From: Cytophagales bacterium
GTDB taxonomy: Bacteria > Bacteroidota > Bacteroidia > Cytophagales > Spirosomataceae
Direction of reading: 5' to 3'
Length of the DNA stretch: 45,121 nt
NCBI GenBank assembly: GCA_013298125.1
Contig: JAAFJP010000042.1
Span: 1-45,121, forward strand
The notes below the pieces were generated by a model. The model had not been told where the DNA came from. It worked only from the letters and a program-made list of their open reading frames with translations, and ran no database searches. How positions within the stretch are numbered: position 1 is the stretch's first letter; each line of letters starts with the position of its first letter. This document shows positions 1-38,847 of this stretch, piece after piece. A program made the position numbers and the translations under genes.

Positions 1-310
1 AAAACAATAAATGACTAAAACATTGTCTGAGAATGTGTCAGATAGCATATAATTTGTTGTTTGGAAACTCAAAATTAATGCAGGATGACCATTCTTAGAT
101 TTTAATGTAGGTTACAACTTAAATTACTTAAAAAGCGTGTAATACTATCATGGCTGATAGTATTATCCAAAAGTCTTGATAAACCCGTAGCACTTGTCTG
201 TGAAGTGCTACTAATCAAATAGTCTGTGTAAAAATCTAACAACTTTTCCATAGACAAAGATAATCAGTATCAAATAACTACGTCAGGAGAAACTTGCGTA
301 ACATCAGTTA
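1..310. other. Gene-free left edge with hairpins and one end of an inverted-repeat element
   Basis: No convincing reading frame is seen. The stretch holds two clean hairpins: 140-165 (11-bp arms, TGGC loop) and 187-211 (9-bp arms GTAGCACTT/AAGTGCTAC, 7-nt loop). It ends with CTTGCGTAACATCAGTTA (293-310), which touches the ATG of the next gene. Those 18 bases are the exact reverse complement of the left tip of the 200-bp element at 35291-35490. I therefore read this region as a related small non-coding element whose left end I could not define. Confidence 0.55.
293..310. repeat. Terminal repeat of a MITE-like element (18 bp)
   Basis: CTTGCGTAACATCAGTTA is identical, in inverse orientation, to 35291-35308. 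In both places the tip abuts a gene: here the start codon at 311, there the stop codon of the serine hydrolase. Eighteen exact bases shared by two gene borders 35 kb apart is unlikely by chance. Confidence 0.7.
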
Positions 311-1909: not shown

Positions 1910-1942
1910 AGATTTTTTACTTATAAAACCTTTTCTACGCAA

Positions 1943-1975
1943 AAAGGGAGTGGCAAACAAATTGCCACTCCCTTT
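1943..1975. terminator. Bidirectional terminator between convergent genes
   Basis: Perfect 14-bp arms (AAAGGGAGTGGCAA at 1943-1956 and its complement at 1962-1975) with a 5-nt loop. A-rich sequence on the left and T-rich sequence on the right let it serve both the plus-strand gene ending at 1909 and the minus-strand gene ending at 2001. Confidence 0.8.
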
Positions 1976-2000
1976 CAGACTTTATAATACCCGTAACATC

Positions 2001-2480
2001 CTATATTTTCAAAGCCGCAGGTAAAGCTACCTTAGATTTTCTTGGTTTTGTGGGCTTACGTCCCACACTCTTACGAGCAGAAGATATAGTCGCATTTGCC
2101 AATTGTAACTCTGTTATTTTTTGCTCGTAACTCGCTATTAATGAAGCACTTTCAGATTTTTTAGACTCCAAATCAGACATCATTTTCTTCATCTGTTCGT
2201 CTAATACAGAGAACTTTGCTCCCATTTCTTCATTTTGACGTTTGAAGGTATTAACTTGTTGTTCTAATTTAGTAATTTCAACGTTTTTAGCCTTTATTTG
2301 GTCTTCTAAGGTCAATTTTACATCCTTCAATTCTCTTATTTCTTTATGAGCTCGCTCAACATTTACGTCAAGACGGTCTTTATCTTTTGCCAAATCTGCA
2401 TACTGCTTTTGACTAACGCACGAACTTACCAAAACGGCAAATGATAAAACAATACTTACTTTACGGAGAGCAATGGTCAT
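2001..2480 (-). CDS. Small coiled-coil lipoprotein
   Basis: 159 aa. The N-terminus is a lipoprotein signal with lipobox VSSC (Cys about 21), followed by QKQYADL, a start seen in many Bacteroidota envelope lipoproteins that carry a C-terminal OmpA domain. Residues about 28-130 are heptad-rich Lys/Glu coiled coil. The C-terminus is short and basic (RKSVGRKPTKPRKSK), with no OmpA domain, so it is either a stand-alone coiled-coil lipoprotein or a shortened relative of the OmpA type. The basic tail could contact peptidoglycan or nucleic acid, but that is inference. It converges on the upstream gene across a shared terminator. Confidence 0.7.
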   Translation of the reverse strand: MTIALRKVSIVLSFAVLVSSCVSQKQYADLAKDKDRLDVNVERAHKEIRELKDVKLTLEDQIKAKNVEITKLEQQVNTFKRQNEEMGAKFSVLDEQMKKMMSDLESKKSESASLIASYEQKITELQLANATISSARKSVGRKPTKPRKSKVALPAALKI

Positions 2481-2774
2481 GGTTTCTTGGATTATGGGTT
2501 AATTATTTCAGGGTTAAGTATTAAAATAGCAATAATAATTATTTGAATTTTTATAAATAATGAGTACCTTAGTTTAAATTAAAAATTAAAAATATAAAAT
2601 TAAAAATTTAGGGTATTGAAACTCAATAAATGGTAATTTTAACTTTAATAAAATTACACTTGAATATTTTATAGATTTATAAATATCAATGAATTATGGG
2701 AATTCAATCTTCTAATAATTCTTAATTTTAAACTTTTAATTCATAATTACTTCATCAAATTTCTCTTTAAAATT
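2481..2774. other. AT-rich spacer with word-repeat palindrome
   Basis: Divergent spacer between the lipoprotein and the aspartyl protease. It contains an array of AAATTA-like words at 2574-2610 and a complementary array at about 2719-2750 (CTTAATTTTAAACTTTTAAT), ending some 25 bp before the start codon. The layout is the same as in the other word-repeat spacers described here. No gene seen. Confidence 0.5.
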
Positions 2775-4112
2775 ATGAAAACGATTTATCAAAAATTATT
2801 ACTAACACTCCTTGTGCTTTCTCCCTTTGGCGGATATTGCAAGATACAAAATATTCCTGAAAGAGAAGTTATTTCAAATCTTGAAAGAGAGGAGAAACCA
2901 ACGCTCAAAAAAGTAAAATTAAAAGCGGTTTCTGACGAAAAATTTGGATTTCAACTTACTAAAAAGCGGAAGACAGCAAGAATCCCATTTGATTTTCAAG
3001 CAAATTTAGTCATAGTACCTGTAAAAGTCAATAAATCAGATACTTTACGTTTTATTTTAGATACTGGAGTCAGCTCAATTCTCCTCACAGACCCTACAAT
3101 TGCTGAAAAACAAAGAATGAAATTTGTGAGAAATGTAAAAATTTCAGGAGCGGGTGAGGGCGATGCCATTGAGGCGGGAATTGTTTTAGAGAATACTATC
3201 ACGATGGGCGATATGATTGGCTATCGTCAAAACTTAGTAGTCTTGAAAGATGATATTCTCAAATTGAGCGAATTTGTTGGAAAGCCCATCCACGGCATTA
3301 TTGGCTACGATATTTTCAATCGTTTTGCGGTTACCTTAGACTTTTCAACCAACGAAATTATCCTCGAAAATCCAGAACATTATAAGTATAAACCCAGCAA
3401 AGGCGAACGATTCCCAATTTCGATTGAGGAAAATAAACCCTATTTGAGTACAATAGAATTGATTAATGATAAGCAAAATCTACCCCTCAAAGTCGTATTA
3501 GACACAGGTGCTGGTCATGCTATTTCTTTGGATGCCAATAGAATCAATGGAATCCCGATGCCTGATAAAGTTGTGAAGGCACAGTTAGGGCGTGGATTAA
3601 GTGGTATCATCAATGGCAATCTTGGTAGAATTTCGAAATTAAAAGTCGGTAAATTTGAGATGTCAAATTTAGTTGCCTCATTTCCAGATAGTGCTTCTTA
3701 CAAAATTAGAGGTTTGGAAATGAGTGAACGACAAGGAAATATTGGTTGTGAGTTTTTAAGAAGATTTAAGGTAACCTTCAATTACAGAGACCAGTACGTG
3801 GTTTTGAAACCCATCAATCGCCGTATGAAAGAGCCTTTTGAGCATAATATGTCAGGCATTGAACTGATGGCAAAAGGCGATGATTATCACGAATATACGA
3901 TTGATAGAGTCATAGAGAATTCTCCTGCCGATGATGCAGGTTTATTGCAAGGCGACAAAGTTGTTTTTATTAATAACAAATCTTCCAAAGAAATCACCAT
4001 CAGTGAAATCTACAAATTATTCCAAAAAGGAGAAGGGAAAAATATTTCTTTGATAGTGAATCGTGAAGGGAAAGTATTTTTTGCGTCAATTAATTTGAGG
4101 AGGTTGATTTAG
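2775..4112 (+). CDS. Retropepsin-like aspartyl protease with C-terminal PDZ domain
   Basis: 445 aa. A signal peptide is visible at about residues 1-22. Two catalytic-type motifs are present: FILDTGVSS (Asp96) and VVLDTGAGH (Asp243), each followed by a hydrophobic-hydrophobic-Gly element (GIIGYDIF near 174; NIGCEFL near 322), as expected of a two-lobed pepsin-like fold built from retropepsin-like halves. Residues about 355-440 form a PDZ domain (SPADDAGLLQGDKVVFINN). Such proteins are common in Bacteroidota envelopes, but their substrates are mostly unknown. The gene stands alone; the next gene belongs to the rimP block and has its own promoter. The start sits right before the signal peptide. 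Confidence 0.85.
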   Translation: MKTIYQKLLLTLLVLSPFGGYCKIQNIPEREVISNLEREEKPTLKKVKLKAVSDEKFGFQLTKKRKTARIPFDFQANLVIVPVKVNKSDTLRFILDTGVSSILLTDPTIAEKQRMKFVRNVKISGAGEGDAIEAGIVLENTITMGDMIGYRQNLVVLKDDILKLSEFVGKPIHGIIGYDIFNRFAVTLDFSTNEIILENPEHYKYKPSKGERFPISIEENKPYLSTIELINDKQNLPLKVVLDTGAGHAISLDANRINGIPMPDKVVKAQLGRGLSGIINGNLGRISKLKVGKFEMSNLVASFPDSASYKIRGLEMSERQGNIGCEFLRRFKVTFNYRDQYVVLKPINRRMKEPFEHNMSGIELMAKGDDYHEYTIDRVIENSPADDAGLLQGDKVVFINNKSSKEITISEIYKLFQKGEGKNISLIVNREGKVFFASINLRRLI

Positions 4113-4190
4113 AATCCATCATTTTAACACGTTAATATTGTCAAATTCATAGAAATCAAGGATTTATATTTATTCCTCCTACAAAAATGC

Positions 4191-4221
4191 TTGCTTTTTG
4201 ATAAGCAATTCATTAATTTTG
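4191..4221 (+). promoter_or_regulatory. Bacteroidota-type promoter for rimP-nusA-infB
   Basis: TTG at 4191-4193, a 20-nt spacer, then TAATTTTG at 4214-4221. This matches the TTG-N17/23-TAnnTTTG consensus of Bacteroidota housekeeping promoters exactly. Predicted transcription start is about 4228, giving a leader of about 140 nt. Confidence 0.7.
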
Positions 4222-4235
4222 CGGAGAATTTAAAG

Positions 4236-4266
4236 AAAGAGGGGTCGATAATCCCTCTTTTTTGTT
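4236..4266 (+). terminator. Leader hairpin with U-tract: attenuator or upstream terminator
   Basis: AAAGAGGG (4236-4243) pairs with CCCTCTTT (4253-4260) and is followed by a T run. It starts only about 8 nt after the predicted start site of the rimP block, so it would sit at the 5' end of that transcript. It lies 124 bp past the protease stop, so a late terminator for that gene is also possible. Its position after a good promoter favours a premature-termination element. Confidence 0.55.
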
Positions 4267-4280
4267 TTCTAAATTTTATT

Positions 4281-4368
4281 GAGTGATTAGTAATTAGTGA
4301 TTGGTAATTAGTTCAAAATTCTGTGAGTTATTTTAATCCAATCACCATTCACCAATCACAAATCACCA
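4281..4368. repeat. Word-repeat palindrome upstream of rimP
   Basis: Left array 4281-4311 is built from imperfect GTGATTAGTAAT words. Right array 4338-4368 is built from complementary CACCAATCA words and ends 3 bp before the rimP ATG. The arms match in reverse complement with several mismatches. It is one of a set of similar spacers. Confidence 0.7.
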
Positions 4369-4371
4369 AAA

Positions 4372-4845
4372 ATGACCAAAGAAAAAGTAATAGAATTGCT
4401 CCAACCGTACCTCGAAGAAGACAGAATCTTTATCGTAGATGTATCGGCAACGGCAGGCAAAAATCGTCAGAATATCACCATCTTGTTAGATACTGACGAA
4501 GGAATTAAGATTGAAGAATGTGCTTCTATTAGTAGAAGATTAGCTCATTTTATTGAAACTAACGAATTGATAAAAGATGCCTACAATTTAGAAGTATCAT
4601 CGCCAGGGGTTGATTTTCCTTTGACTTTTAAACGCCAATACATCAAAAATATTGGTAGAGATGTAAAGTTAAATCTGACAGAAGGTGGCGAGAAGATTGG
4701 AAAGTTAGAAGATGTAAACGATGAGGGCATCGTTTTTAAAGAAGAAGCAAAGAAATCAAAAGGCAAAAAAGTTGTACCCATAGAAAGCGTAATCATTCCA
4801 TTTGGGAATATCCAACAAGCCAAAGTACAAATATCGTTTAAATAG
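4372..4845 (+). CDS. rimP: Ribosome maturation factor RimP
   Basis: 157 aa, normal length for the family. RimP binds the 30S subunit during maturation. The N-terminal domain (about 1-80) carries the conserved NITILLDTDEGIKIEECASISRR-type segment, which ends in LEVSSPGVDFPL; the SPG motif is a family hallmark. The C-terminal SH3-like domain (about 85-157) ends with IIPFGNIQQAKVQISF. It is the first gene of the conserved rimP-nusA-infB block. The start is 3 bp after a palindromic word array, and no strong Shine-Dalgarno is visible, as is usual in Bacteroidota. Confidence 0.93.
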   Translation: MTKEKVIELLQPYLEEDRIFIVDVSATAGKNRQNITILLDTDEGIKIEECASISRRLAHFIETNELIKDAYNLEVSSPGVDFPLTFKRQYIKNIGRDVKLNLTEGGEKIGKLEDVNDEGIVFKEEAKKSKGKKVVPIESVIIPFGNIQQAKVQISFK

Positions 4846-4852
4846 TGGGAAA

Positions 4853-5009
4853 GGTGTTAGGTAGTAGGTGTTAGGTGTTAGGTAGTAGGTGTTAGGTGTT
4901 AGGTAGTAGGACTTAGGGAATCAGTGTAAGACTGGAATCTAAAACCTAAAACCCAAAACCTAAAACCTGTAATTCTAAAACCTAAAACCCAAAACCTAAA
5001 ACCTAAACT
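4853..5009. repeat. Word-repeat spacer between rimP and nusA
   Basis: Left array 4853-4915 repeats GGTGTTAGGTAGTA words. Right array 4938-5009 repeats CCTAAAACCTAAAACCC words. Both are built on a TTAGG/CCTAA core, so the arms can pair imperfectly. The block nearly fills the rimP-nusA gap and ends about 20 bp before the nusA start. Confidence 0.75.
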
Positions 5010-5029
5010 CATTTAAAACTTATGAAAAG

Positions 5030-6277
5030 ATGAATAGTGCAGAATTAATTTCGTCGTTTGCGGATTTTGCAAAAGAAAAAAACATTGACCGTCCGACGAT
5101 GATAAAAGTGCTGGATGAAGTATTCCGCACCATGATTCGTAAGAGATACGGAACAGATGAAAACTTCGATGTAATCATCAACCCCGATAGTGGCGACTTA
5201 GAAATGTGGCGTACTCGTGAGATTGTCGATGACAACTCAGAAGACATTTGGGACTATGACAAAATTCCTTTGGAGGAAGCTAAGAAAATCGAACCCGATT
5301 TTGAAATCGGTGAGGAAGTAGCCGAACTCGTTAAATTGGAAGATTTTGGTCGTAGAATCGTGCAGACCGCTCGCCAGACATTGATTCAGAAAATCAAAGA
5401 CCTTGAAAAAGAAGGTCTGTTTGAAAAATACAAGGATTTGGTGGGTGAAATGGTGTCGGGAGATGTGTATCAGATCATCGGAAAAGAATTTATTATTACT
5501 GATCAAGAAGGCAACGAATTGACTCTTCCAAAATCAGAGATGATTCAGAAAGACCGTTTCAAGAAAGGTGAACCCGTGAAGGCTGTTATCCACAAAGTAG
5601 ATAACAACAACGGAACACCTAAGATTATTCTTTCGAGAACCTCTCCTGTGTTCTTGGAACGTCTGTTTGAACAAGAAATTCCTGAGATTTATGATGGACA
5701 AATCATGATTCGTAAAATTGTACGTGAGCCAGGCGAACGTGCAAAAGTAGCCGTAGAATCGTATGATGACCGTATTGACCCAGTAGGTGCTTGCGTAGGT
5801 ATGAAGGGTTCACGTATTCACGGGATTGTACGTGAGTTACAAAACGAGAACATTGACGTTATAAACTATACTGAGAATCTTGAACTGTTGGTGGGTCGTG
5901 CTTTAAGCCCTGCCAAAGTGAGTTCGATGAAGATTGATAAAGAGAAAAAACGTATCGCCGTTTACTTACAGCCAGACCAGGTGTCGTTGGCGATTGGTAA
6001 AGGTGGACAAAACATTAAATTGGCAGGGAAATTAGTAGGTTACGAATTGGACGTTTATCGTGATATTAAAGAATCCGAAATAGACGATGAAGACGTGGAC
6101 TTAACAGAATTCACTGACGAAATCGAAGACTGGGTAATTGCAGAATTACACAAAATCGGTTTAGATACCGCCAAGCAAGTTCTGGCATTGGACAGCGAAG
6201 AGTTGATTCGTCGTACTGAACTTGAAGAAGAAACTGTGAACGAAGTATTATCAATCCTACGCTCGGAGTTTGAATAA
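5030..6277 (+). CDS. nusA: Transcription termination/antitermination factor NusA
   Basis: 415 aa, typical of Bacteroidota NusA. NusA binds RNA polymerase and nascent RNA to modulate pausing, termination and antitermination. The N-terminal polymerase-binding domain covers about 1-125 (MNSAELISSFADFAKEKNID onward). An S1 domain follows at about 130-200 (GEMVSGDVYQII). Two KH domains follow, with the second GxxG loop in AIGKGGQNIKLAGKL near 321. The acidic C-terminus (DDEDVDLTEFTDEIEDW) leads into a short helical domain. It lies between rimP and infB in the canonical order, separated from both by word-repeat spacers. Confidence 0.95.
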   Translation: MNSAELISSFADFAKEKNIDRPTMIKVLDEVFRTMIRKRYGTDENFDVIINPDSGDLEMWRTREIVDDNSEDIWDYDKIPLEEAKKIEPDFEIGEEVAELVKLEDFGRRIVQTARQTLIQKIKDLEKEGLFEKYKDLVGEMVSGDVYQIIGKEFIITDQEGNELTLPKSEMIQKDRFKKGEPVKAVIHKVDNNNGTPKIILSRTSPVFLERLFEQEIPEIYDGQIMIRKIVREPGERAKVAVESYDDRIDPVGACVGMKGSRIHGIVRELQNENIDVINYTENLELLVGRALSPAKVSSMKIDKEKKRIAVYLQPDQVSLAIGKGGQNIKLAGKLVGYELDVYRDIKESEIDDEDVDLTEFTDEIEDWVIAELHKIGLDTAKQVLALDSEELIRRTELEEETVNEVLSILRSEFE

Positions 6278-6280
6278 GTT

Positions 6281-6360
6281 AGAATGAGTAAGTGAAGGAA
6301 TGATAGAATAGTCATTGTACTTATTTCACTTGCTCATCAAAGCTATTCTATCATTCAATC
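6281..6360. repeat. Word-repeat palindrome between nusA and infB
   Basis: Left arm 6281-6311 contains GAGTAAGTGAA and GAATGATAGAATAG. Right arm 6321-6360 contains complements TTCACTTGCTC and CTATTCTATCATTC. The word order is shuffled between arms, so this is not a simple terminator. It lies inside an operon and has no U-tract. Confidence 0.7.
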
Positions 6361-6404
6361 ACACAAAATTTTAAATTATTATAGAAAAGTATCAAACAAC
6401 AAGT

Positions 6405-9400
6405 ATGACAGAAGACAAAATGATGCGTTTGAGCCTTGTGGCAAAGCAAATTGGCGTAGGTACCTCAACCATCGTACAAAAGCTCTCTGTCCAAGGTCAT
6501 AAGGTCGAGAACAACCCTAACGCCAAATTAAATTTTGAACAATTAAAAATTGTAGCAAAAGAGTTCGGAGCAAGCGACCTTTTGCAAGAACAAGCTGCTG
6601 CCCCAAAAGTAGTGGAAGAAGTCGTTGTGCCTAACAGAAGACAGGACGATGATTATTTGCCTTTATACTCACGCAATACTCCTCCAAAAACCGAGACTCC
6701 TACGCCCGCCGTTGAAGCTCCAAAGGTTGAGAAAGTTGAGAAGGAAGTAGAAAAAATCAGTGCAAAATCTGAGGTAGAGTTTAAGGTAATTGGTAAAGTA
6801 GAACTGGATGCAAAGGGTAACGTTGTTCCTCCAAAACCAGTCGTTGCACCAGAAGCGAAGGTAGAAGCTCCGAAAGTTGAGGAAGCAAAACCTGTGGCAG
6901 TAGAAACTCCGAAAGTTGAAGAAGCAAAACCAGTAGTAGTAGAAACTCCGAAAGCCGCAGAGCCTGTGAAGGTTGAGGAAGCTAAACCAGTAGCGGTAGA
7001 ACAACCAAAAGCCGTTGAGTCTGTGAGGGTTGAGGAAGCTAAACCAGTAGTTACTGAACAACCAAAACCTCAGCAAAACGCTCAAAATCAGCAAAGTAAC
7101 CAAAACCAAGGAAATAGAAATAACCAAGGTGGAGTTAATAACAACCAAAGCCAAGGAAATAGAAATCAAGGTGGCGGAAATAACCAAAACCAAGGAAATA
7201 GACCCCAAGGCGGAGGAAATAACCAAAACCAAGGAAATAGAAACAACCAAGGCGGTGGAAACAACCAAAACCAAGGAAATAGAAACCAAGGTGGTGGAAA
7301 CAGCCAACCGATAAGACCACAAGGTGGAGCGAATAGCCCAACCCAACAACGTCCAGCCGCTGGTACGGTTGTGGGTGGTGGTACTCAAAATCAGCCTAAG
7401 CCAGTACAACCCGTTGATAATAGACCTCAAAAATTAGGACGTAACGATGCGATTCCAGACGATACTTCATCGGTAGAATTAATCGAAGCAAGAGGTGAGC
7501 AATTGCGTGGTTTGAAGGTTTTGGGTAAAATTGAATTACCAGTAGAAACCCCTCGTGGAGGTGGTAATAATCGTAACAAGAAAAAACGCAAACGCATTGA
7601 TAAACCAGGCGGAGCGAAAGTTACGGAGGCAGAAATCAGAAATGAAAAAGGTGCTCCACGTCCGAAAAAAGACGGTGCACCAGTTGACCCTAATGCACCT
7701 AAGAAACCCGCAGGAACAGGTACTAATACTGGCGGTGGACAAGGTGGCGGAGGCAACCGACAAGGTGGTCATAGCCCTAATTACAAAGGAAATCGAGGAA
7801 ATAACAATACTGGTAACAATGCTGGTGCAAAACCAGTTCCAAAAGGAGAAGTTACCGAAAAACAGATTCAAGACCAAATCAAGGCAACAATGGCTCGTCT
7901 CCAAGGACAGTCGAATAAGTCGAACTTTGGTGCGAAGGAGCGTCGTGAAAAACGTAAATTCCGTGCGGATAGAAGTGAACAACGTCAATTAGCCGAAGAC
8001 GAAGAAGCAAAAATCTTAAAGGTAACTGAATATATTTCTGCCTCTGAGTTAGCGTCATTGATGGATGTTTCAATCAACGAAATCATCTCAGCTTGTATGA
8101 GTTTGGGTATGTTTATTTCGATAAATCAACGCCTTGAAGCTGACGTAATTGCTTTGATTACAGAGGAATTTGGATTTGAAGTACAATTCGTATCTGCCGA
8201 AGAAGAAATTGATTCAGTAATTGCTGAGGAAGAAGATGCCCCAGAAGATTTGTTACCAAGAGCTCCAATCGTTACCATCATGGGACACGTTGACCACGGT
8301 AAAACTTCTTTACTTGACTACATCCGTCGTGCGAAAGTTGCGGCTGGTGAGGCAGGAGGTATCACGCAGCACATTGGTGCATATTCAGTAAAACAAGACG
8401 ATGGTCGTAGAATCACATTCTTAGATACACCTGGTCACGAGGCGTTTACCGCCATGCGTGCAAGGGGTGCGAAGGTAACGGACGTTGCCATTATCGTAAT
8501 TGCGGCGGATGATGCCGTGATGCCACAAACCGAGGAAGCCATCAATCACGCTATGGTAGCGGGTGTACCAATCGTGTTTGCGTTCTCGAAAGTAGATAAG
8601 CCAGGAGCCAATACTGAGAAAATTCGTGAACAATTATCTATCAAAAATATCCTTGTAGAAGAATGGGGTGGTAAATACCAAACCCAAGAATTATCTTCTA
8701 AATCAGGTATGGGGGTAAATGAATTGTTGGAAAAAGTATTGCTCGAAGCGGAGATGTTAGAATTGAAAGCCAACGCTAACAAACGTGCCATTGGTACTGT
8801 CGTAGAAGCCTCTTTGGACAAAGGACGTGGATACGTAGCCAATATCTTGGTACAAGCTGGAACATTGAGAGTAGGAGATATGATGCTTGCAGGAGCAAAC
8901 TACGGACGTGTAAAAGCGATGTTTGATTACCGTGGAAATAAATTGAAAGAGGCAGGTCCATCTATTCCAGTACAAGTATTGGGATTGAACGGAGCCCCAG
9001 GTGCAGGAGATAAGTTGAGCGTAATGGAAAATGAGCGTGATGCACGTGACATTGCCAACAAACGTGAGCAAATTATCCGTGAACAATCATTACGTAGTCG
9101 TAAGCATATTACCTTGGAAGAGATTGGTCGTCGTAAGGCTATTGGTACTTTCAAAGAGTTGAACGTAATCGTAAAAGGAGACGTGGACGGTTCAGTAGAG
9201 GCGTTATCAGATTCGTTATTGAAACTATCAACGGAAGAAGTACAAGTAAGAATTATCCACAAAGGGGTTGGACAAGTTTCAGAATCAGACGTATTGTTGG
9301 CTTCGGCTTCGGATGCGGTGATTGTGGCGTTCCAAGTTCGTCCAAGCACAAACGCCCGTCGTTTGGCAGAAAACGAACAAATCGAAATCCGTACGTATTC

Positions 9401-9764
9401 AATTATCTATCAAGCAATTGACGATGTACGTGATGCGATGGAAGGCTTATTAGCTCCAACATTTGAGGAAGTTGTTACGGCAAACATCGAAGTACGTGAT
9501 GTATTCAAGATTACGAAAGTGGGTACAGTTGCAGGGGCGTATGTATTAGACGGAACGGTGAAACGTTCAAATAAAATACGTATTATACGTGATTTCGTTG
9601 TAGTTCACGAAGGCGAAATATCCGCTCTAAAACGTTTCAAAGACGATGTGGCTGAGGTTAAGTTTGGCTACGAATGTGGTCTATCTATCAAGAACTTCAA
9701 CGATATTGAAATTGGCGATGTAGTTGAATGTTATGAATTGAAAGAGTTGAAACGTACTTTGTAA
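6405..9764 (+). CDS. infB: Translation initiation factor IF-2
   Basis: 1119 aa, long for the family because of an extended disordered linker. IF-2 is the GTPase that brings initiator tRNA to the 30S subunit and promotes subunit joining. Residues about 1-65 are the IF2 N-terminal domain. About 95-230 is a repeated VEEAKPVxVExPK segment, and about 225-320 an Asn/Gln/Gly-rich array of [11 protein letters not shown] units. The G domain starts near 626 with GHVDHGKTS, then [14 protein letters not shown] and SKVD in the G4 position (near 728), where most IF-2 proteins have NKxD. Domains II-IV follow and end in KELKRTL. The start [10 protein letters not shown] fits the IF2_N fold. The last 36 codons and the terminator are duplicated at 12505-12668. 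Confidence 0.96.
7087..7310 (+). repeat. Coding tandem repeat in infB (Asn/Gln/Gly-rich)
   Basis: Imperfect repeats of about 36 bp (AACCAAAACCAAGGAAATAG core) encode [12 protein letters not shown]-like units, at least five in a row. They keep the reading frame and lie in the disordered linker. Such arrays can expand or contract by slippage. Confidence 0.75.
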
Positions 9765-9818
9765 TCAAATGCGTTTTGAGATATAAAAAAGGCTTCTGGA
9801 TGATTTCGGAAGCCATTT
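9655..9818 (+). repeat. infB 3'-end direct repeat, left copy
   Basis: These 164 bp (the last 36 or so codons of infB plus terminator) align without gaps to 12505-12668 at an offset of 2850 bp, with about 13 mismatches by my count. It is the intact, functional end of the complete infB gene. Confidence 0.85.
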
Positions 9819-9820
9819 TT
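9791..9820 (+). terminator. Terminator after infB
   Basis: GGCTTC (9791-9796) pairs with GAAGCC (9809-9814), flanked by an A run on the left and ATTTTTG on the right. It lies 27 bp after the infB stop. A close copy with a longer perfect stem lies at 12639-12666. Confidence 0.75.
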
Positions 9821-9849
9821 GTTTATATAAGTCATTTCCTACGACCAGA

Positions 9850-9890
9850 GAGAAGAGAATAGACCTCCCAATAATTATGGGAGATCTCTT
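9850..9890. terminator. Short hairpin downstream of the minus-strand lipoprotein
   Basis: CTCCCA/TGGGAG with an ATAATTA loop, flanked by AGAGAATAGAC and GATCTCTTATCT, which extend the pairing imperfectly. It lies just past the stop of the minus-strand gene at 9901 and may terminate it. There is no clear U-tract. Confidence 0.35.
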
Positions 9891-9900
9891 ATCTAATGAT

Positions 9901-10968
9901 TTAATTACAATTGATATATTCATATCTGGTTTTTGCATAATTTGGAAATTCTATTGTGGATTCTCCTTTTAGGTTGAAACTTGTAACACTGTATTGAATC
10001 ATCGTGGGTAAATTACTGGTATTTTTAATGTTGGTATAATTGTACTCACCAGTTTTTATGAAACTTTTTCCATTATCATTACTGTAATACGAGAAACGTC
10101 TCTTATAAATTGAATTTTTGTTGCCTCTTGGAGAAGGTAATTTAGGATAATTTTTGGGCTTGGGTAATGTAAAAGTAGGGTCAGCCACTTCTTCATATTC
10201 AATATCTGCATAATTCCACATTTTAGTATTAGTATAGCCTTCTTGTTTAATAACCCGCCCTTTCTTATCGTAATAAAATCTATCAGTATCCATTCTACCT
10301 GGTTCAGAAAGGTAATTGTATAAATTTTCAACTACAATTTGTCCCTCCGCATTAACCTCATGTTGTAAAATTTGTCTGCCAACATTTGTTTCAGCCTTGT
10401 GAACTACGTTATTTTTCAAATAGTAGGTATCATTTCGGAAATCAATGTCTGTATATTTAATCAAATCTCCTTTACTGTCGTATTCAAAAGTCTTTTTACT
10501 GGTAACTGGATTAGCTACATCATAGAAAAAATTGCCATAAAATTTCCAATACATATCTTCTTCAATCATTTTTTCACCATCATACTTATACCTAACATAC
10601 CCACGAATTGGGGCAACGGGGTCACGTTTTTGATATAGTGCATAGCCCCAATATAATTGCCCCGATATGGTTATTTCTTTCAAAAAATCATTCTGGTCAT
10701 ATTGATAATCATAATCTATGTTGTACGTAGTTCTGGAACTATCACCTGTTCCGTCATTAGACCAGAATTTCTTTTTTATGATTTGTTTTTTATCATTATA
10801 AAAATATTCTATTGAATAACCTGGCTTTCCCGAAGCGTCAATATAACCTTCAATCTTCGATAACAAGCAGTTCGTTTTATAAGCAATTTCATCTGGAACT
10901 ACCTCTAAATCAGTAGTTTTACAAGAAATTATTAGCCAAATGAATAGAATGAGGATGGTATATTTCAT
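9901..10968 (-). CDS. Lipoprotein with YD-type repeat pattern
   Basis: 355 aa. The N-terminus is a lipoprotein signal with lipobox ISC (Cys16). The body has repeated Tyr/Asp strands such as YDYQYDQNDFLKEI, FEYDSKGDLIKYTDI and YYDKKGRVIKQEGY, a pattern seen in RHS/YD-repeat-like beta proteins of Bacteroidota; these usually have no assigned function. It follows the upstream minus-strand gene by 7 bp, so the two form an operon. Both lie on a segment bounded by two copies of the infB 3' end and are probably acquired. A surface location is likely. Confidence 0.75.
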   Translation of the reverse strand: MKYTILILFIWLIISCKTTDLEVVPDEIAYKTNCLLSKIEGYIDASGKPGYSIEYFYNDKKQIIKKKFWSNDGTGDSSRTTYNIDYDYQYDQNDFLKEITISGQLYWGYALYQKRDPVAPIRGYVRYKYDGEKMIEEDMYWKFYGNFFYDVANPVTSKKTFEYDSKGDLIKYTDIDFRNDTYYLKNNVVHKAETNVGRQILQHEVNAEGQIVVENLYNYLSEPGRMDTDRFYYDKKGRVIKQEGYTNTKMWNYADIEYEEVADPTFTLPKPKNYPKLPSPRGNKNSIYKRRFSYYSNDNGKSFIKTGEYNYTNIKNTSNLPTMIQYSVTSFNLKGESTIEFPNYAKTRYEYINCN

Positions 10969-10975
10969 ATTGATT

Positions 10976-12208
10976 TTATTTTTTGAAAAACCGTTTTGTG
11001 AAATTTTGATTATTGGTATTGGCTCGTATCAGATATATTCCTACGGGCAGATTTTCAATATCTACTTGGTATTTGTTAGGAGATATTTTCTGGAAATTAG
11101 ATTTTAATAAGTTACCTGTCAAGTCGAAAACTTCAATTTTGGTGATTGGAGTTGAATGTTCTACAATCAAATAACTTTCCGTAGGATTTGGATAGATTAA
11201 CAGTTCTTTGTCAATATTGATTTCATTTGATAATACAATGGCTTTATCTATCTCTGAAAGTTTTGTCCAGTAAATGCCTCTGGTTGTTCCTAACAGAACT
11301 GTATCGCCTACGATATGAACGCAATACGGAAAAGATGTGATATTTAACCCACCTCTAACAGGAACAAACGTTTTGCCCATATCTTCTGAATAGTATATTG
11401 GGTCAATGGAATTACGTGATAAGACAAAAAGGTGATTATTTCGTCTGAAAGTTTTCCAAGCAAGTGAAAAATTAACAACATTTGAAACGAAATTCCATGA
11501 AGGCTTTACTCCCAAAGGAGATGAATATATAGAGAAATTTGTTTCATTCTTGAAAAAACCAATTATATCTTTTTCAGAAATATCAAAAATATCAACACTT
11601 TTATATCCTATTGGAATTGGATAATTTTGAAATGTACGCCCTTTATCAGGTGAGACAAAAATTCTGTTATAATCATAGCCGTAGATGATACCATTTTTTT
11701 CTACTACATTCCTAATAGATGTAGATAAATTATCTCCTATTCCGTTCTCCTTTGTCCAATTAATACCATTATTTAAGGAACTAAATATACCTTGTTGTTC
11801 AATTCTTAGCCATTCATTATTAAGATATGGAACTGTGAGCAAAACTTCCGTAAATTGACCACGAGCGATTCTCTTTCTACCTTGATTTGAGTAAGTAGTC
11901 CAAAAACCCGTATCGCCTAAAATACCTCCCGCCACCACATTCCCCGTATTATTCATAGAAATAGACATATACAGATAAGGATAGCCCTCATATACAATAA
12001 CCTTATCGTTGGTCTTCCAAGACTTTCCTTTATCTGTTGAGTAAAACATTGCATCGCTCGCCGCATGACCCGCCAGCCAAATAGAATCATTGGTATAAAT
12101 TCCAGAAACACCAACATTATCCAAATTACTATTCAGCAATTTCCACTGTGAAAAGGCTGTATTGGAAATGAAATAAAAGAGAATTATTGAGAAGAGGAAA
12201 CGCATCAT
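10976..12208 (-). CDS. Secreted Asp-box (BNR-like) repeat protein with type IX sorting tail
   Basis: 410 aa. A signal peptide covers about 1-20. The body carries at least four Asp-box motifs: STDKGKSW, SLNNGINW, SPDKGRTF and SEDMGKTF, each on a beta-hairpin as in sialidase/sortilin-type propellers. The sialidase catalytic residues are not evident, so I do not call it an enzyme. The tail begins with LIYPNPTESYLIVE, a type IX secretion sorting signal. It leads a two-gene operon with the lipoprotein at 9901 and has a plausible promoter at 12245-12275. Two Met codons open the frame; the signal peptide is intact from either. Confidence 0.8.
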   Translation of the reverse strand: MMRFLFSIILFYFISNTAFSQWKLLNSNLDNVGVSGIYTNDSIWLAGHAASDAMFYSTDKGKSWKTNDKVIVYEGYPYLYMSISMNNTGNVVAGGILGDTGFWTTYSNQGRKRIARGQFTEVLLTVPYLNNEWLRIEQQGIFSSLNNGINWTKENGIGDNLSTSIRNVVEKNGIIYGYDYNRIFVSPDKGRTFQNYPIPIGYKSVDIFDISEKDIIGFFKNETNFSIYSSPLGVKPSWNFVSNVVNFSLAWKTFRRNNHLFVLSRNSIDPIYYSEDMGKTFVPVRGGLNITSFPYCVHIVGDTVLLGTTRGIYWTKLSEIDKAIVLSNEINIDKELLIYPNPTESYLIVEHSTPITKIEVFDLTGNLLKSNFQKISPNKYQVDIENLPVGIYLIRANTNNQNFTKRFFKK

Positions 12209-12244
12209 AGCTGTTATTTATTAGATATAGTTCAATTTGTAAAA

Positions 12245-12275
12245 TAAATGTAGGTCTTTTATCCTAAATTTCCAA
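12245..12275 (-). promoter_or_regulatory. Putative promoter of the Asp-box protein operon
   Basis: Read on the minus strand: TTG (12273-12275), 20-nt spacer, TACATTTA (12245-12252). It differs from TAnnTTTG only in the last base and lies about 37 bp upstream of the start. Confidence 0.5.
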
Positions 12276-12376
12276 GAATTAAATCGGTCATAACAAATAG
12301 CTAATTTTCATTTATTTTCTTAAATTGTCAATAAAATTATTCACGCAATCTAATTCTTAAAATGAAAAAAATCTGT

Positions 12377-12406
12377 ATCTGGTCGTAGCGTCCGCTACGA
12401 CCAGAT
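12377..12406. repeat. Perfect 30-bp palindrome
   Basis: ATCTGGTCGTAGCG is followed by TC and its exact complement CGCTACGACCAGAT. CTACGACCAGA recurs at 9839-9849, at the opposite border of the same island. Confidence 0.75.
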
Positions 12407-12460
12407 GGGATAACTCACGATTTTAGATTTTTCATAATTAATTGATAATCAAATATTTAT

Positions 12461-12504
12461 GTTGCTAACGCACGATGTTCGGTGGAGATGCCGACCACGG
12501 AGAT
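12461..12504. repeat. Arm of a GTTGCTRACGCA-type element at the island border
   Basis: GTTGCTAACGCACGAT followed by GGTGGAGATGCC resembles the right arm of the inverted repeat at 25093-25140 (GTTGCTGACGCAAGAT, GGTGAAGACACGC). It ends exactly where the second infB terminus begins, so a repeat element marks the junction. Confidence 0.55.
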
Positions 12505-12668
12505 AGGTCAAGTTTGGCTACGAATGTGGTCTATCAATCAAGAATTTCAACGATATTGAAATAGGCGATGTCGTAGAATGTTATGAATTGCAAGAGTTGA
12601 AACGTACTTTGTAATTAGTTACGTTTTGAGATATAAAAATGGCTTCTGGATGATTTCAGAAGCCATTT
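12505..12668 (+). pseudogene. Orphan copy of the infB 3' end with terminator
   Basis: Ungapped copy of 9655-9818, about 92% identical. In the coding part (12505-12614) I count seven differences: six are synonymous (for example TCT/TCA, AAC/AAT, ATT/ATA) and one gives Lys to Gln (AAA/CAA). The stop codon and the stem-loop are conserved; the stem at 12639-12666 has ten perfect pairs. There is no upstream infB sequence, so it encodes nothing by itself. It is either the native end displaced by an insertion or an end brought in from a related genome. Confidence 0.85.
12639..12666. terminator. Terminator of the duplicated infB end
   Basis: ATGGCTTCTG pairs perfectly with CAGAAGCCAT around an 8-nt loop, with an A run on the left and TTTTA on the right. 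It may now also stop minus-strand transcription of the M20 gene ending at 12776. Confidence 0.65.
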
Positions 12669-12775
12669 TATAGTAAAATCTTGTCTTGTCCTAAAATATT
12701 ATCAGTACCAAAAATATCATTATAGAACAACAAAGAAAGTATGTTGGACGAACACATAGGACTAGACCCTTTATT

Positions 12776-14083
12776 TTATTTTCCTTTTTCCATATAATCA
12801 ATTACCAAACTCGCCATAGATTTCATTCCTAAGACAAAACCACCTTCATCTATCTGAAAATCAGGAGTATGATGTGGGGCTGTTTCAGATTCTTTCTTAC
12901 CTTTGGCAGCTCCGCCCAAGAAGAAAAATAAGCCTGGTACTTTTTCTTGATAGAAAGCAAAATCCTCCGCACCTGTTACAGCGGCAGTGATTGAAACGTT
13001 ATCTTTACCCGCAACGCCTTCCAAAGTCGGAATCATTTTATCAGTCAAAGCTATATCATTGTAAGTAATCGGACACATTTTTGTGATTTTCACATCGGCA
13101 GTTGCTCCTGCACTTTGGGCGATATTGGTAGCCACCTGAGCGATACGAGCATGAATCATATCTTGTGTTTTTAAATCAAGGGTACGAATCGTTCCGTTCA
13201 TATTTACTTCTTCTGGAATGATATTGCTACGAACTCCGCCGTTGATTTGTCCAACCGTAACAACCGCTGCCGACTCAATCAAAGGAGTATTTCTACTAAT
13301 AATGGTCTGTAAACCCATTACAATTTGCGAAGCTGTAACGATAGGGTCAATCCCTTGCCAAGGACTTGCTCCATGGGTTTGCTTGCCTTTTACCTTAATT
13401 TTGAACCAGTCAGAACTCGCCATCGTACCACCTGGGCGATAACGAATTTTACCTATTTCTGTCTGAGCGTTGATGTGTAAACCGAAGATTACATCCACTT
13501 TTGGGTTTTCTAAAACTCCTTCTTTTACCATCAAGGCGGCTCCACCTTCTTCACCTTCGGGAGCACCTTCTTCGGCGGGTTGGAAAATAAATTTTACTGT
13601 TCCTTTCAAATCATTTTTCATAGATGAAAGTATTTCGGCAGTTCCCATCAAAATTGCCACGTGTGTATCGTGTCCACAGGCGTGCATGACGCTTACAGGT
13701 TGTCCGTTGTACTCGCCCACAACTTTTGAAGCGAAAGATAATTCGGCTCTTTCTTTTACAGGCAAACCGTCCATGTCAGCCCGTAGAGCTACCACTGGAC
13801 CAGGTTTTCCACCTTTCAAGATACCGACAACGCCTGTTTTACCTACGCCTGTTTGGACTTCTATTCCCAAAGATTTGAGATGAGTCGCTACCTTTTCGGC
13901 AGTTTTAAATTCACGATTTCCTAATTCTGGATTTTGGTGAAAATCTCTTCGCCAAGCTACTACCTTGGCTTCAAGGGTTTCGGCTTTTTGGGCAATTTTA
14001 GCTTTAAGGGCAGGAGCGTTTTGTGCTTGTACTGAGACTGAAACCAGACCAGTCAAAGCCATAATGGTAATAATTTTTTGCAT
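12776..14083 (-). CDS. Secreted M20-family amidohydrolase
   Basis: 435 aa with a signal peptide at about 1-20. It is a zinc hydrolase of the M20D type (hippurate/IAA-amino-acid hydrolase group), which cleaves N-acyl amino acids. Signatures: VVAWRRDFHQNPELG at the N-terminus, VVALRADMDGLPV, HACGHDTHVAILMG with metal-binding His/Asp, PAEEG with the catalytic Glu pair, and a late HHTPDF His block. The dimerisation (lid) domain lies at about 210-320. Signal peptide plus M20D domain suggests a periplasmic scavenging role; the substrate cannot be told from sequence. The upstream spacer (14084-14295) is rich in CTCTAA/TTAGAG words. Confidence 0.88.
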   Translation of the reverse strand: MQKIITIMALTGLVSVSVQAQNAPALKAKIAQKAETLEAKVVAWRRDFHQNPELGNREFKTAEKVATHLKSLGIEVQTGVGKTGVVGILKGGKPGPVVALRADMDGLPVKERAELSFASKVVGEYNGQPVSVMHACGHDTHVAILMGTAEILSSMKNDLKGTVKFIFQPAEEGAPEGEEGGAALMVKEGVLENPKVDVIFGLHINAQTEIGKIRYRPGGTMASSDWFKIKVKGKQTHGASPWQGIDPIVTASQIVMGLQTIISRNTPLIESAAVVTVGQINGGVRSNIIPEEVNMNGTIRTLDLKTQDMIHARIAQVATNIAQSAGATADVKITKMCPITYNDIALTDKMIPTLEGVAGKDNVSITAAVTGAEDFAFYQEKVPGLFFFLGGAAKGKKESETAPHHTPDFQIDEGGFVLGMKSMASLVIDYMEKGK

Positions 14084-14139
14084 GATGTTGTGTAATTTTT
14101 AGATATTTCTAATACCAAGTTACAAAAAAGAATAAGCTA

Positions 14140-14310
14140 ACCCAAATAAAACTTAGAGGAAGGGAGGATTAGAGGAAAGTTAGGAACTTATATGAAAGTG
14201 AAATGGAGAACTTAGAGAGTTAGAGGATTAAAGGTATGTGAAAAGGGGAACAGTGTTAGAAGAAAAAGTAAATAATCATCCTTTTTTCTAAATCTCTAAG
14301 TTCGTATAGA
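14140..14310. repeat. Word-repeat spacer upstream of the M20 gene
   Basis: In the coding (minus) sense, the part nearest the M20 start is a run of CTCTAACTCTCTAAGTTC-like words. The far end, overlapping the DUF983 stop, has the complementary AACTTAGAGATTTAGA. Words are imperfect and interrupted by AT-rich sequence. The architecture is that of the other word-repeat spacers. Confidence 0.5.
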
Positions 14311-14706
14311 TGGTTTATATTTCACAAATCCGAACAAATGTAAAAATACAGAGCGTGATATTCTAAAATTAAAGGGGACTGTTAGAATGGATAAAATTGT
14401 AACAGGAACGATGTAATACATCACAGGTGGGTCATTGAAGAGATAAAATATTGTTACGCCTAAAACTACTAATAAAGCAATCGTGTTGGCATAACTTACA
14501 AACATTGCTCCGTACCAAAAGCCAGGCTCTACCTCGAACTTCAAACCACAGACAGGGCATTTTTCGTGCATTTCCGAGAATTTATCTACCCGCCAAAAGG
14601 GATATAAAAACATTTTTCCTTCACGACACTGCGGACAACGAGCTTCGCCAATGGCTTGGATTTTGGTGCGTTTTGTAACTAATTGAAGATGACTTACCTC
14701 TTTCAT
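14296..14706 (-). CDS. DUF983 zinc-ribbon membrane protein
   Basis: 136 aa. The N-terminal half carries two Cys pairs, ARCPQCREGKMF and HEKCPVCGLKFE, forming a zinc ribbon, followed by EPGFWYGAMFVSYA, the DUF983 hallmark. Two membrane segments follow (about 72-92 and 98-118). Function is not established. It lies between the M20 gene and the giant secreted protein at 14741, only 34 bp downstream of the latter's stop. Confidence 0.85.
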   Translation of the reverse strand: MKEVSHLQLVTKRTKIQAIGEARCPQCREGKMFLYPFWRVDKFSEMHEKCPVCGLKFEVEPGFWYGAMFVSYANTIALLVVLGVTIFYLFNDPPVMYYIVPVTILSILTVPFNFRISRSVFLHLFGFVKYKPSIRT

Positions 14707-14740
14707 ATTTTTTGTTTATGGAATAGAATTGCTCCCAAAA

Positions 14741-17590
14741 CTAACGTTCAATAATTATCCTCTTTGTGATGGTATAAAAAGTATCTGTCTTTATTCTCAT
14801 CATATATTCACCCTCTGGGAGGGAGGTCAAATCTATTGATTTCACATCATTAAAAATATTCACGAGTGTTTTTGTAATGAACTCTCCTCTAAGACTAAAA
14901 ATTTCAATGGTTGAATTTAACCAATCGACTCTTGAATCTATGTTAAATACTCCACGGCTTGGATTTGGGAAAATTGATAAACCATTGTCATTGAATAAAG
15001 CAAAATATTTTCTTTGTGATGGTTCAGAGACACATACCTTTTCACCATAGGACTTTGTTTTATAGATATTTTTGGAAATTACACTAAATTCTGCTGCTTC
15101 ATTAAATCTTATTTTTTCTCCAAAATAGATAGGAGAATTTGCTCCATTAACCTGCCAATTATAGGTGTCAGCTTTGGGATTATTGATAGCAATGGTATAA
15201 GGACTCAATCTTACGATATTGCTTGTATCTACTCTTGCTGGAATAGGTTTTACAGATACATACAAAGGTGCTGATAGTCCTGATTTACAGCCATTTTGAT
15301 CTGTCTGAAATCCTTGAAATAAACCTGAACTATTGACATTTAGATTTTGAAAGTTATACCTAATCGTAGCACCATTCTGTTTAGCAAACCAAGTGGCAAA
15401 GCCTCCACTTACAATATTCATCTGTAATATCGTACTTTCTCCTTCACAAAAAACCGTGTCCCTCGTACTTGTGATGATGGGTAATGGAGGTAATGGATTC
15501 ACTTTTATTCTGGTATTAATCGATACCTTTGAATTACATCCATTTTTATCTATAACCTTGACATTGTAATCTCCTGCATTTCTGACTGTGATGCTCCGAG
15601 TGGTTGCTCCTGTACTCCATCGATAAGACTCCGCATCTTGATTAGACGAGGTCAAAACTACACTTGTGTCTGTGCAAAAAGTAGTTGGACTATTAGGTAC
15701 GATGCTTGGTGTTTGAGGTAATGGAAGTGCTGTTACCTTGATAGCGTCGGATTGATTAGAAACACAACCTTGACTATTGATTGTTTTTACTGAAAAAGTT
15801 CCAGACGTATTTATTTTAAGTAACCTATTGGTTGAACCATCACTCCAAAGGTATTTTACAGCATTCTGATTAGAAGACTGTAATGTAACACTTGAATCTG
15901 AACAAAAAGTAGTGGAAGAATTAGCCGAAACAATAGGCTTTGGTGGACCTGGTTTTGAAATGATATTAACTGCATTTGAAAACTCTGACTGACATCCAAA
16001 AGTATTAACAATTCTGACAGCATAGTTTCCCGATGTAGTAACATTAATTTCTTTTTCTCTACTTCCTGTATTCCACTCATAGAAAATTGCATCATTGGCT
16101 CTGAGGTTTACACTATTTCCTTCGCAAAAATCAGTTGCACCTGTTGCCGTAATTCTCGCAACGGGATAGTTACTTCCTCTAAATGAAATGGCAGGAACTT
16201 GTATTACATTTCCATTAGCATTTGTAAAACGAGCAAAATATTCTCTATTAGGTTCTACTTGTACTAATAATTTTCTCTGATTAGATATTCTTCCATTATT
16301 AAAATTTTGCCCATTATTAGACCATTCATAGTTAGAAAAACCATCTGGTAAGGCAATTTCGACTTGTCCATCCCCGCATATAAAAGTGGGTGCAGGGGTC
16401 TCAATGGGTAAATGGGTTCTTGAATTAGCAAAAAAAGAATCATTCAATGAGTTATTCCAAGCATCTGCTAATTGGGCTAATCCTGAATTAAAATGGACAC
16501 CATCTTGACGACCTGGATTCTGAATGCCGTCTGTTTCAGGACCTTGAAAGACGTTTGGAGTTTCTCGAATAGTTGCACGTTGCCCTTCTAAGATATTATT
16601 ATCAGATGGAGCAAATGGTGAAAAAGAACACCCTGGGCAGAAGGTCGTGGCGGATGTTAAAGAAACAACCCACGAAATATCCTTGCCAGATTCACTACGG
16701 GAACGGTTTATGACAGTTTGTAAATTTGATTTATAGGTACTCGCACTTATATTTTGTTTTGTTCTAACAATGAAGTTATCCGTTTCTCCTTGACACCACA
16801 AAATCGACCTCACGCCCAACAGACTGACATAATAACGCAGTACCTCTGAAAGATTTTGGTAAGGAAGTCTGTTAAAATAATTCCCACCAGTGTAGGGATT
16901 AGGAGCTAAGTTACCATTGGCAGTTGTAGCCCACATAGAACTGGACGTACCTTCAAAGGCAGTATTAAAAAACATTACAGGGACATTTAAGCGACTTACT
17001 AATAAATCTCCTAATCTTCCCCAGCACCAAGCATTTAAGCCTCTTGGTGCAATACGAGAATTAGCATTTAGTTTTGAAAATGGAGAAGGCGATATGTAAT
17101 TAGTCCCTCCGAAAGTCCTATCGTTTAAACCGTCAAAGCAATTTACTCTGTCACTATTAGCTCCTAATGGATTAACATTATCAACTCCTTCGGCATTAGA
17201 CTGTCCTGAAATGATGAATACTTCTCCCACACCTACTCTATCTACACGAGAGACACCGCCTACGAAGTTACCGTTGATACTTCCTCTTACTTCGAGTGTG
17301 TACCAGCCCTGTCTAATCGATAATGTACTACTAAAATTTCCGTTTAATGGAAAATCTCGTATGGTAATCCAATTGGTTTCATCACCTTGACCTGGCTCTA
17401 CGGGAATAAAGCGAGCTTCAATTTTATCAACTTGTTGCTGATAAGAGCCTGCAATAGTTATTCTCGAAAATCCATTTTCTCGCTGATAGACCGCTCGATT
17501 TTGGGGGGAAGTTATTTTTATTTGACTATATGAAAAATAACTAAAACACATTAAAATAGAGATAAGTACTGTACTTTTAAACGCTGTCAT
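14741..17590 (-). CDS. Giant secreted SGNH esterase-like protein with Ig-like repeats and type IX sorting tail
   Basis: 949 aa. A signal peptide covers about 1-22 and an N-terminal beta domain about 23-120. The sialate-O-acetylesterase-like SGNH domain spans about 121-390: IISGQSNAEG with nucleophile Ser131, WCQGETDN near 266, and DGVHFNSG near 364 supplying the Asp/His pair. After a linker come four Ig/PKD-like modules with FCEGNSVNL, FCSDSSVTL, FCTDTSVVL and FCEGESTIL starts, then a type IX sorting tail (LSIFPNPSRGVFNI). The likely role is deacetylation of an extracellular polysaccharide, inferred from the domain. It is paralogous to the adjacent gene at 17660; the 69-bp gap suggests co-transcription. 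Confidence 0.85.
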   Translation of the reverse strand: MTAFKSTVLISILMCFSYFSYSQIKITSPQNRAVYQRENGFSRITIAGSYQQQVDKIEARFIPVEPGQGDETNWITIRDFPLNGNFSSTLSIRQGWYTLEVRGSINGNFVGGVSRVDRVGVGEVFIISGQSNAEGVDNVNPLGANSDRVNCFDGLNDRTFGGTNYISPSPFSKLNANSRIAPRGLNAWCWGRLGDLLVSRLNVPVMFFNTAFEGTSSSMWATTANGNLAPNPYTGGNYFNRLPYQNLSEVLRYYVSLLGVRSILWCQGETDNFIVRTKQNISASTYKSNLQTVINRSRSESGKDISWVVSLTSATTFCPGCSFSPFAPSDNNILEGQRATIRETPNVFQGPETDGIQNPGRQDGVHFNSGLAQLADAWNNSLNDSFFANSRTHLPIETPAPTFICGDGQVEIALPDGFSNYEWSNNGQNFNNGRISNQRKLLVQVEPNREYFARFTNANGNVIQVPAISFRGSNYPVARITATGATDFCEGNSVNLRANDAIFYEWNTGSREKEINVTTSGNYAVRIVNTFGCQSEFSNAVNIISKPGPPKPIVSANSSTTFCSDSSVTLQSSNQNAVKYLWSDGSTNRLLKINTSGTFSVKTINSQGCVSNQSDAIKVTALPLPQTPSIVPNSPTTFCTDTSVVLTSSNQDAESYRWSTGATTRSITVRNAGDYNVKVIDKNGCNSKVSINTRIKVNPLPPLPIITSTRDTVFCEGESTILQMNIVSGGFATWFAKQNGATIRYNFQNLNVNSSGLFQGFQTDQNGCKSGLSAPLYVSVKPIPARVDTSNIVRLSPYTIAINNPKADTYNWQVNGANSPIYFGEKIRFNEAAEFSVISKNIYKTKSYGEKVCVSEPSQRKYFALFNDNGLSIFPNPSRGVFNIDSRVDWLNSTIEIFSLRGEFITKTLVNIFNDVKSIDLTSLPEGEYMMRIKTDTFYTITKRIIIER

Positions 17591-26605: not shown

Positions 26606-26654
26606 AATTCTTGTTATACTAACAAATTCTTATTATGCTAACAATTTTTTGTTA
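26606..26654. repeat. Direct repeats and small hairpin after the kinase gene
   Basis: TTCTTGTTATACTAACAAA and TTCTTATTATGCTAACAA are tandem near-copies. The second ends in a hairpin CTAACAA/TTGTTAG that overlaps the kinase stop codon (minus strand). It may act as a weak terminator or be a duplication scar. Confidence 0.45.
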
Positions 26655-38679: not shown

Positions 38680-38687
38680 ATTTTGGA

Positions 38688-38804
38688 GGGATTGAGGTTA
38701 CACAGAGAACCACAGAGAAAAAACGAGAACCACAGAGAAAAAACTCTGAATTCTCTGTGGTTCTCAATTTAAAACTCTGTGGCTCTCTGTGTAACCTCAA
38801 TCCC
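38688..38804. repeat. Word-repeat palindrome after the adaptor gene
   Basis: The outer 30-bp arms (38688-38717 and 38775-38804) match with one mismatch; the word is ACACAGAGAACCACAGAG. The inner part repeats GAACCACAGAG and its complement CTCTGTGGTTC. It lies between two co-oriented operon genes and ends 43 bp before the preferred start of the next one. Confidence 0.8.
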
Positions 38805-38847
38805 GAAAAACAGTACCTCTAAAATACTTTGGTATAACCTTCTTAAA

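Follow-up and report, generated by a model that had tools for sequence, protein, structure and literature searches.

A probable insertion of outside DNA at the 3' end of infB in Arcicella, with a displaced copy of the gene end

The 3' end of infB, the gene for translation initiation factor IF-2, occurs twice in a 45,121-nt stretch of Arcicella DNA (the window), once closing the complete gene (copy A) and once, 2.7 kb further on, as an orphan beyond two other genes (copy B). The reading preferred here, to which a probability of roughly 60% is assigned, is that outside DNA entered at the infB 3' end and displaced the previous end beyond the cargo, somewhat more probably by homology-anchored joining than by an integrase. 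The incoming DNA would either have brought an infB end along or have used one to join; the infB frame would have stayed complete, while the previous end moved to the far side of the cargo. One junction would have formed through homology in infB and the opposite one by illegitimate joining, in the manner of natural transformation. A relative, genome G004, displays such a structure directly; the window would record the same kind of event at an older stage, with a later rearrangement having set an M20 peptidase block behind copy B. Copy B would now lie where it could end M20 transcription.

The window is the whole of contig C37 of a draft genome (G000; 5,852,352 bases, 72 contigs). Within it infB is complete (6405-9764, plus strand; 1119 aa) and carries the Pfam IF-2 and GTP-binding domains. 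Its N-terminal part contains repeat arrays of a 57-nt and a 63-nt family (6858-7307); further along the window, eight copies of a 153-nt direct repeat lie at 26777-27718 inside a 708-aa ORF (26652-28778), four of the seven spacings being 75 nt. Copy A (9655-9819, plus strand) comprises the final 110 nt of infB and 55 nt with its terminator. Copy B (12505-12669, plus strand) is an orphan infB end with terminator and without gene body; its open frame of 35 aa has a TAG in frame immediately 5' of it (12504-12506). Compared directly, the two align ungapped over 165 nt with 152 identities (92.1%) and 13 differences; the original prediction had recognised the repeat correctly and placed each right-hand end, 9818 and 12668, one base short. 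Seven differences fall in the 110 coding nucleotides, stop counted, and six in the 55 nt after the stop. Of the coding differences, six affect a third codon position and leave the amino acid unaltered (V, S, N, I, V, V), and the seventh is a first-position change from AAA to CAA, Lys to Gln, exactly the tally given originally; the mostly non-synonymous pattern named there as contrary to the claim is absent on re-count. In the whole genome, only copies A and B match the 165-nt query at full length (E 1.9e-81 and 5.5e-64), a third match, on contig C10, covering query bases 128-165, the terminator end. Chance is excluded as the source of the A/B match.

Two minus-strand ORFs (of at least 80 aa) fill the island between the copies. 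The 410-aa ORF (10976-12208) has profile matches to BNR repeats and a T9SS sorting tail and is present in one of the 8 genomes searched, the window's own. The 355-aa ORF (9901-10968), whose start is lipoprotein-like as judged from the first residues, matches nothing in Pfam or NCBIfam at E 0.01 and is present in one of 39 genomes, again the window's own; viral contigs contained no relative of this protein or of the infB C-terminus. Neither ORF matches a recombinase, so the island was rightly described as having no visible integrase. Its description as two surface-protein genes suits the 410-aa ORF and finds no family match behind it for the 355-aa ORF. G+C content is 32% between the copies and 36.5% over the window, and, together with the rarity of the cargo genes among the genomes searched, this makes them look foreign.

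What lies behind infB differs among relatives. In four of eight Arcicella genomes (G002, G003, G005, G007) infB is followed by a LytS-type histidine-kinase-like ORF and a response-regulator-like ORF, both named by eye, and this infB-kinase adjacency is the plain state. Two of the other four, G000 and G004, carry an orphan infB end; G001 and G006 have different genes behind infB and no orphan end. The kinase is found on a contig other than infB's at G000:C5:8740 (L104), G001:C1:262288 (L106) and G006:C261:204 (L105). A PLD-like protein occurs in a different block behind infB at G004:C88 (L037) and G006:C465 (L039), in both without an orphan end. The cargo behind infB thus varies between genomes, as the original prediction had proposed to check.

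The structure is most complete in G004. Contig C134 carries infB, then a 994-aa ORF, then a DUF6443/Rhs ORF cut by the contig end. Contig C182 carries, in order, a far-end Rhs-like piece, a primase and tyrosine-recombinase module, an orphan Rhs-like tip, Imm53, a small repeat element and an infB end of 27 codons that leads through its terminator into the kinase ORF. These are separate contigs, linked by the shared repeat and by the Rhs pieces at the contig ends; the tips are assigned to Rhs from weak TIGR03696 matches below the curated cut-off (E 0.0055 and 0.0086) and from motifs recognised by eye. By blastn, C134 and the first 14,000 of C182's 16,562 bases share a single match, of 90 bp with one mismatch (98.9%), a direct repeat of 27 codons, the stop and 6 nt beyond which the contigs diverge. 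The left edge of this repeat abuts the small repeat element, which may have truncated it. From this arrangement, an insertion at the infB 3' end of G004, with the old end displaced but still leading into the native kinase, is well supported. A second complete infB, on contig C88, ends exactly as that of G006 does and has a PLD-like protein behind it, a sign that the G004 assembly may mix strains.

Direct repeats of the 3' end of a housekeeping gene that itself remains whole are typical of tyrosine-integrase elements, going by the elements described in the available part of PMC4701971. Such an element, inserted by site-specific recombination, with an infB 3' end held in its attachment site and its integrase since lost (in the window) or lost or lying in an unassembled gap (in G004), has to be weighed, and tyrosine recombinases do occur in the G004 island. 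These recombinases, however, belong to a module that is also present in G005, there away from infB; the G004 island recombinase has two G005 copies at 79% identity, the infB of G005 is uninterrupted, and at E 1e-60 the protein is found in 2 of 222 family genomes. The window island has none. Nor do the two insertions share a core site, since the window repeat spans 35 codons, the stop and 55 nt and the G004 repeat 27 codons, the stop and 6 nt. The infB-kinase order of the four plain genomes, taken as the uninterrupted site, fits the flank in G004 and not that in the window. Repeats of 90 and 165 bp also exceed the 12-54 bp reported in that part of PMC4701971. An integrase element is unlikely. 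An insertion anchored by homology should pair homologous sequence at one edge with an arbitrary join at the opposite edge, and the structure observed would be compatible with this. Because the repeat boundaries are unequal, no integrase is linked to infB and the repeats are longer than 12-54 bp, homology-anchored joining would fit somewhat better than a dedicated integrase.

The recombinase module comprises a CHC2/Toprim primase, two XerC/D-like recombinases and an HTH gene, and occurs at G005:C384 (L236) 127-15108 and at about 10288-14953 of G004:C182 (L035, L117). In G005 it forms a perfect 7,491-bp tandem, which could be an assembly artefact, each unit starting with an Rhs-core-like remnant and a tip (Rhs matches below cut-off). 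The G004 copy sits between one Rhs-like tip and an orphan tip starting in the Rhs core. The module is a candidate mobile element for carrying and exchanging Rhs tips.

On its right side, copy B faces the convergent M20 peptidase gene (12776-14083, minus strand; identified by a profile match). In six relatives (G002, G003, G005, G006, G007 and, on C88, G004) the M20 stop is followed by a terminator-like inverted repeat and then by a minus-strand gene that is similar by eye; the G001 region behind M20 differs from these. The window's M20 gene lacks both the usual terminator and the following gene. The G000 kinase lies on contig C5, and the stretch upstream of it resembles the native one back to just past the infB terminator. 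In the window's genome neither the infB-kinase junction nor the one downstream of M20 is intact, and the right side of copy B is, to judge from these comparisons, rearranged. Displacement from the native place is therefore shown for G004 and not for the window, whose pre-insertion order is not seen because the kinase is on C5 and not behind copy B. An inversion is a possible cause of the M20 junction. The two broken junctions would also suit an artefact of rearrangement, in which an unrelated chromosomal event, carrying along an infB piece from a relative's genome, brought copy B next to the M20 block and the cargo arrived independently. This is very improbable, since it would leave to chance that an orphan infB end adjoins accessory genes in two Arcicella genomes. 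The original claim that a segment was acquired and one infB end displaced draws its strength from G004, where the end is still joined to the kinase, and from the foreign-looking cargo, and loses some of it to the rearranged flank in the window.

The terminators would allow a present use for copy B. The stem-loop of copy A (9791-9814, plus strand), found by scan, folds at -18.8 kcal/mol on the plus strand and -10.7 on the minus strand. That of copy B (12636-12669) has a perfect 13-bp stem and is stable in either direction: -18.4 kcal/mol when read from the M20 strand, -21.1 from the infB strand. Reuse of copy B as the M20 terminator is plausible from the predicted folds, and may explain its retention.

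The two repeat pairs group separately. Within the final 84 nt, 6 sites separate A from B and 1 separates the C134 end from the C182 end, while either member of the first pair differs from either member of the second at 11-13. In a FastTree phylogeny of infB ends, A and B group with a support of 0.81 and the C134 and C182 ends with 0.98. The separate grouping makes two events with different cargo likely, and the simplest reading of the sequences is that the pairs represent two separate events at one gene end; later homogenisation inside each genome is a possible alternative. Among the 13 ends compared, none is closer to A or B than these are to each other, so that no donor lineage emerges and the expectation that one copy would match a different lineage is not borne out.

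The synonymous bias had originally been taken to show that both copies probably evolved as functional gene ends. A third-position share of 6/7 has P = 0.007 if both copies drifted freely. The argument from it is weaker than claimed because copy A is a live, constrained gene. With half of the changes placed on copy A, P = 0.18, a value that depends on the third-position share of 0.9 assumed for A in this analysis. Outgroups place four changes on B, three of them at third positions (P = 0.11; 4/5 and P = 0.045 if site 9722 is included), and these changes on B alone would be compatible with decay in place. Local duplication, the infB end being copied within the genome and later parted by the cargo while copy B decayed where it lay, gains from these values of 0.11 to 0.18, which allow for polarity or for the constraint on A. 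It gains too from A and B being mutually closest among the ends sampled, and from the Lys to Gln change, carried by B alone at a site where the other 12 ends have Lys or Arg. It nevertheless appears quite unlikely, in that G004 has an insertion and no tandem duplication, strict free drift of both copies has P = 0.007, and the A/B divergence is like that of ordinary orthologous ends. Twenty-seven other pairs of ends that differ at 4-10 coding sites have a median third-position share of 0.9, and post-stop divergence is equal to or below that of A/B in 11 of the 27; these pairs share sequences and are non-independent, one (L118/L119) lies within a single assembly and two have post-stop alignments of at most 4 columns. 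A/B is ordinary among orthologous ends in both respects. The data would fit a functional past of copy B elsewhere but do not require it. Insertion with displacement is likely in the window, and is less secure than in G004 because the flank of copy B is non-native, an integrase is absent and the synonymous bias is compatible with decay in place.

A small repeat element accompanies the orphan ends. A perfect palindrome with 14-bp arms at 12377-12406 of the window corresponds to the outer part of the element in G004, which is about 180 bp long, has inverted outer palindromes and inner ones, and is rare in the genus (L035, 7248-7430; L115, G004:C381). With at most 2 mismatches, the palindrome is found twice in G000, twice in G004 and once in G006, and is absent from G001, G002, G003, G005, G007 and G012; a control pattern had 0 matches in all nine genomes. 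In G000 and in G004 alike, one of the two occurrences adjoins an orphan infB end, a notable association. The 11-nt sequence CTACGACCAGA, identical to the palindrome arm, has three matches in the window against 0.01 expected, two being the palindrome's own arms and the third, at 9839-9849 on the plus strand, lying about 20 nt behind copy A. A looser, degenerate 18-nt pattern for the repeat ends was discarded, with 12 matches in G000 against 11 for the reversed control, no excess over chance. Elsewhere in the window, nested inverted repeats with ACACAGAGAACCACAGAG motifs lie between two ORFs at 38673-38819.

Orphan infB ends were sought more widely with the 35-aa infB end as query, in 222 family and 391 order genomes (sampled, completeness at least 90%). 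In the family, 217 of 222 genomes gave a match and only G000 (2), G004 (3) and G046 (2) gave more than one; the three in G004 are its two infB genes and one orphan end, and the extra one in G046 is a 97-aa frame running off a contig end. In the order, 390 of 391 gave a match, with more than one only in G000; G004 has no entry among these matches. Outside Arcicella, neither set yielded an orphan infB end. At 80 infB loci, 71 of them with at least 2 kb downstream, tblastn found no second end; short DNA self-matches there were of 30 nt in L124 and 20 nt in L166. The original suggestion that the infB 3' end is a general integration or recombination spot is thus rejected beyond the genus within the sampled genomes, and infB would be an insertion spot at most inside Arcicella. 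Plasmids and phages were discarded as carriers of the infB end, at a best identity of 69% among the best 20 of 43 plasmid records and under 60% in all 16 phage records, several of these records being annotated infB genes or very large. In the literature searched, no paper title reports infB as an integration site; infB serves as a phylogenetic marker in the available portions of PMC6491836 and PMC4458695.

A broader and more doubtful extension of the preferred reading is that Arcicella infB is a recurrent site of gene-end swapping, at which the end of this essential gene is replaced again and again by incoming DNA, new surface or toxin genes are installed behind it without a dedicated integrase and old ends persist as fossils, one of them reused as a terminator. 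With these cases infB joins the genes that have taken up islands at their 3' ends, and G004 shows the event in nearly complete form. Remnant ends such as copy B mark an insertion, and roughly date it, once any mobile machinery is gone. The two Arcicella cases permit testing whether such insertions require an integrase.

Rhs and other polymorphic-toxin loci contain displaced orphan tips. The G004 island resembles them in bringing a DUF6443/Rhs ORF, Rhs-like tips and Imm53 behind infB; in contrast, the window cargo has no Rhs family match, and the displaced end is that of infB. Integrative elements are described at the 3' ends of streptococcal rplL, rpsI, lysS, rpmG and guaA in the available part of PMC4701971. 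As with those elements, the host gene is complete and its 3' end is repeated directly on either side of the insert; the window's repeat is 165 nt long with 92% identity, that of G004 90 bp with 98.9%. The Arcicella cases differ in the longer repeats already noted and in having no infB-linked integrase, and infB has 0 occurrences in that paper. Homology-facilitated illegitimate recombination and merodiploids made by transformation are treated in the accessible parts of PMC3240628 and PMC3784515, respectively, and by analogy with these processes one-sided homology with an illegitimate join could leave a partial duplicate of the anchoring gene. In this company the case is one of a real, foreign-looking insertion at an unusual gene end, well supported in G004 and likely in the window, and infB is a new target for a known kind of event.
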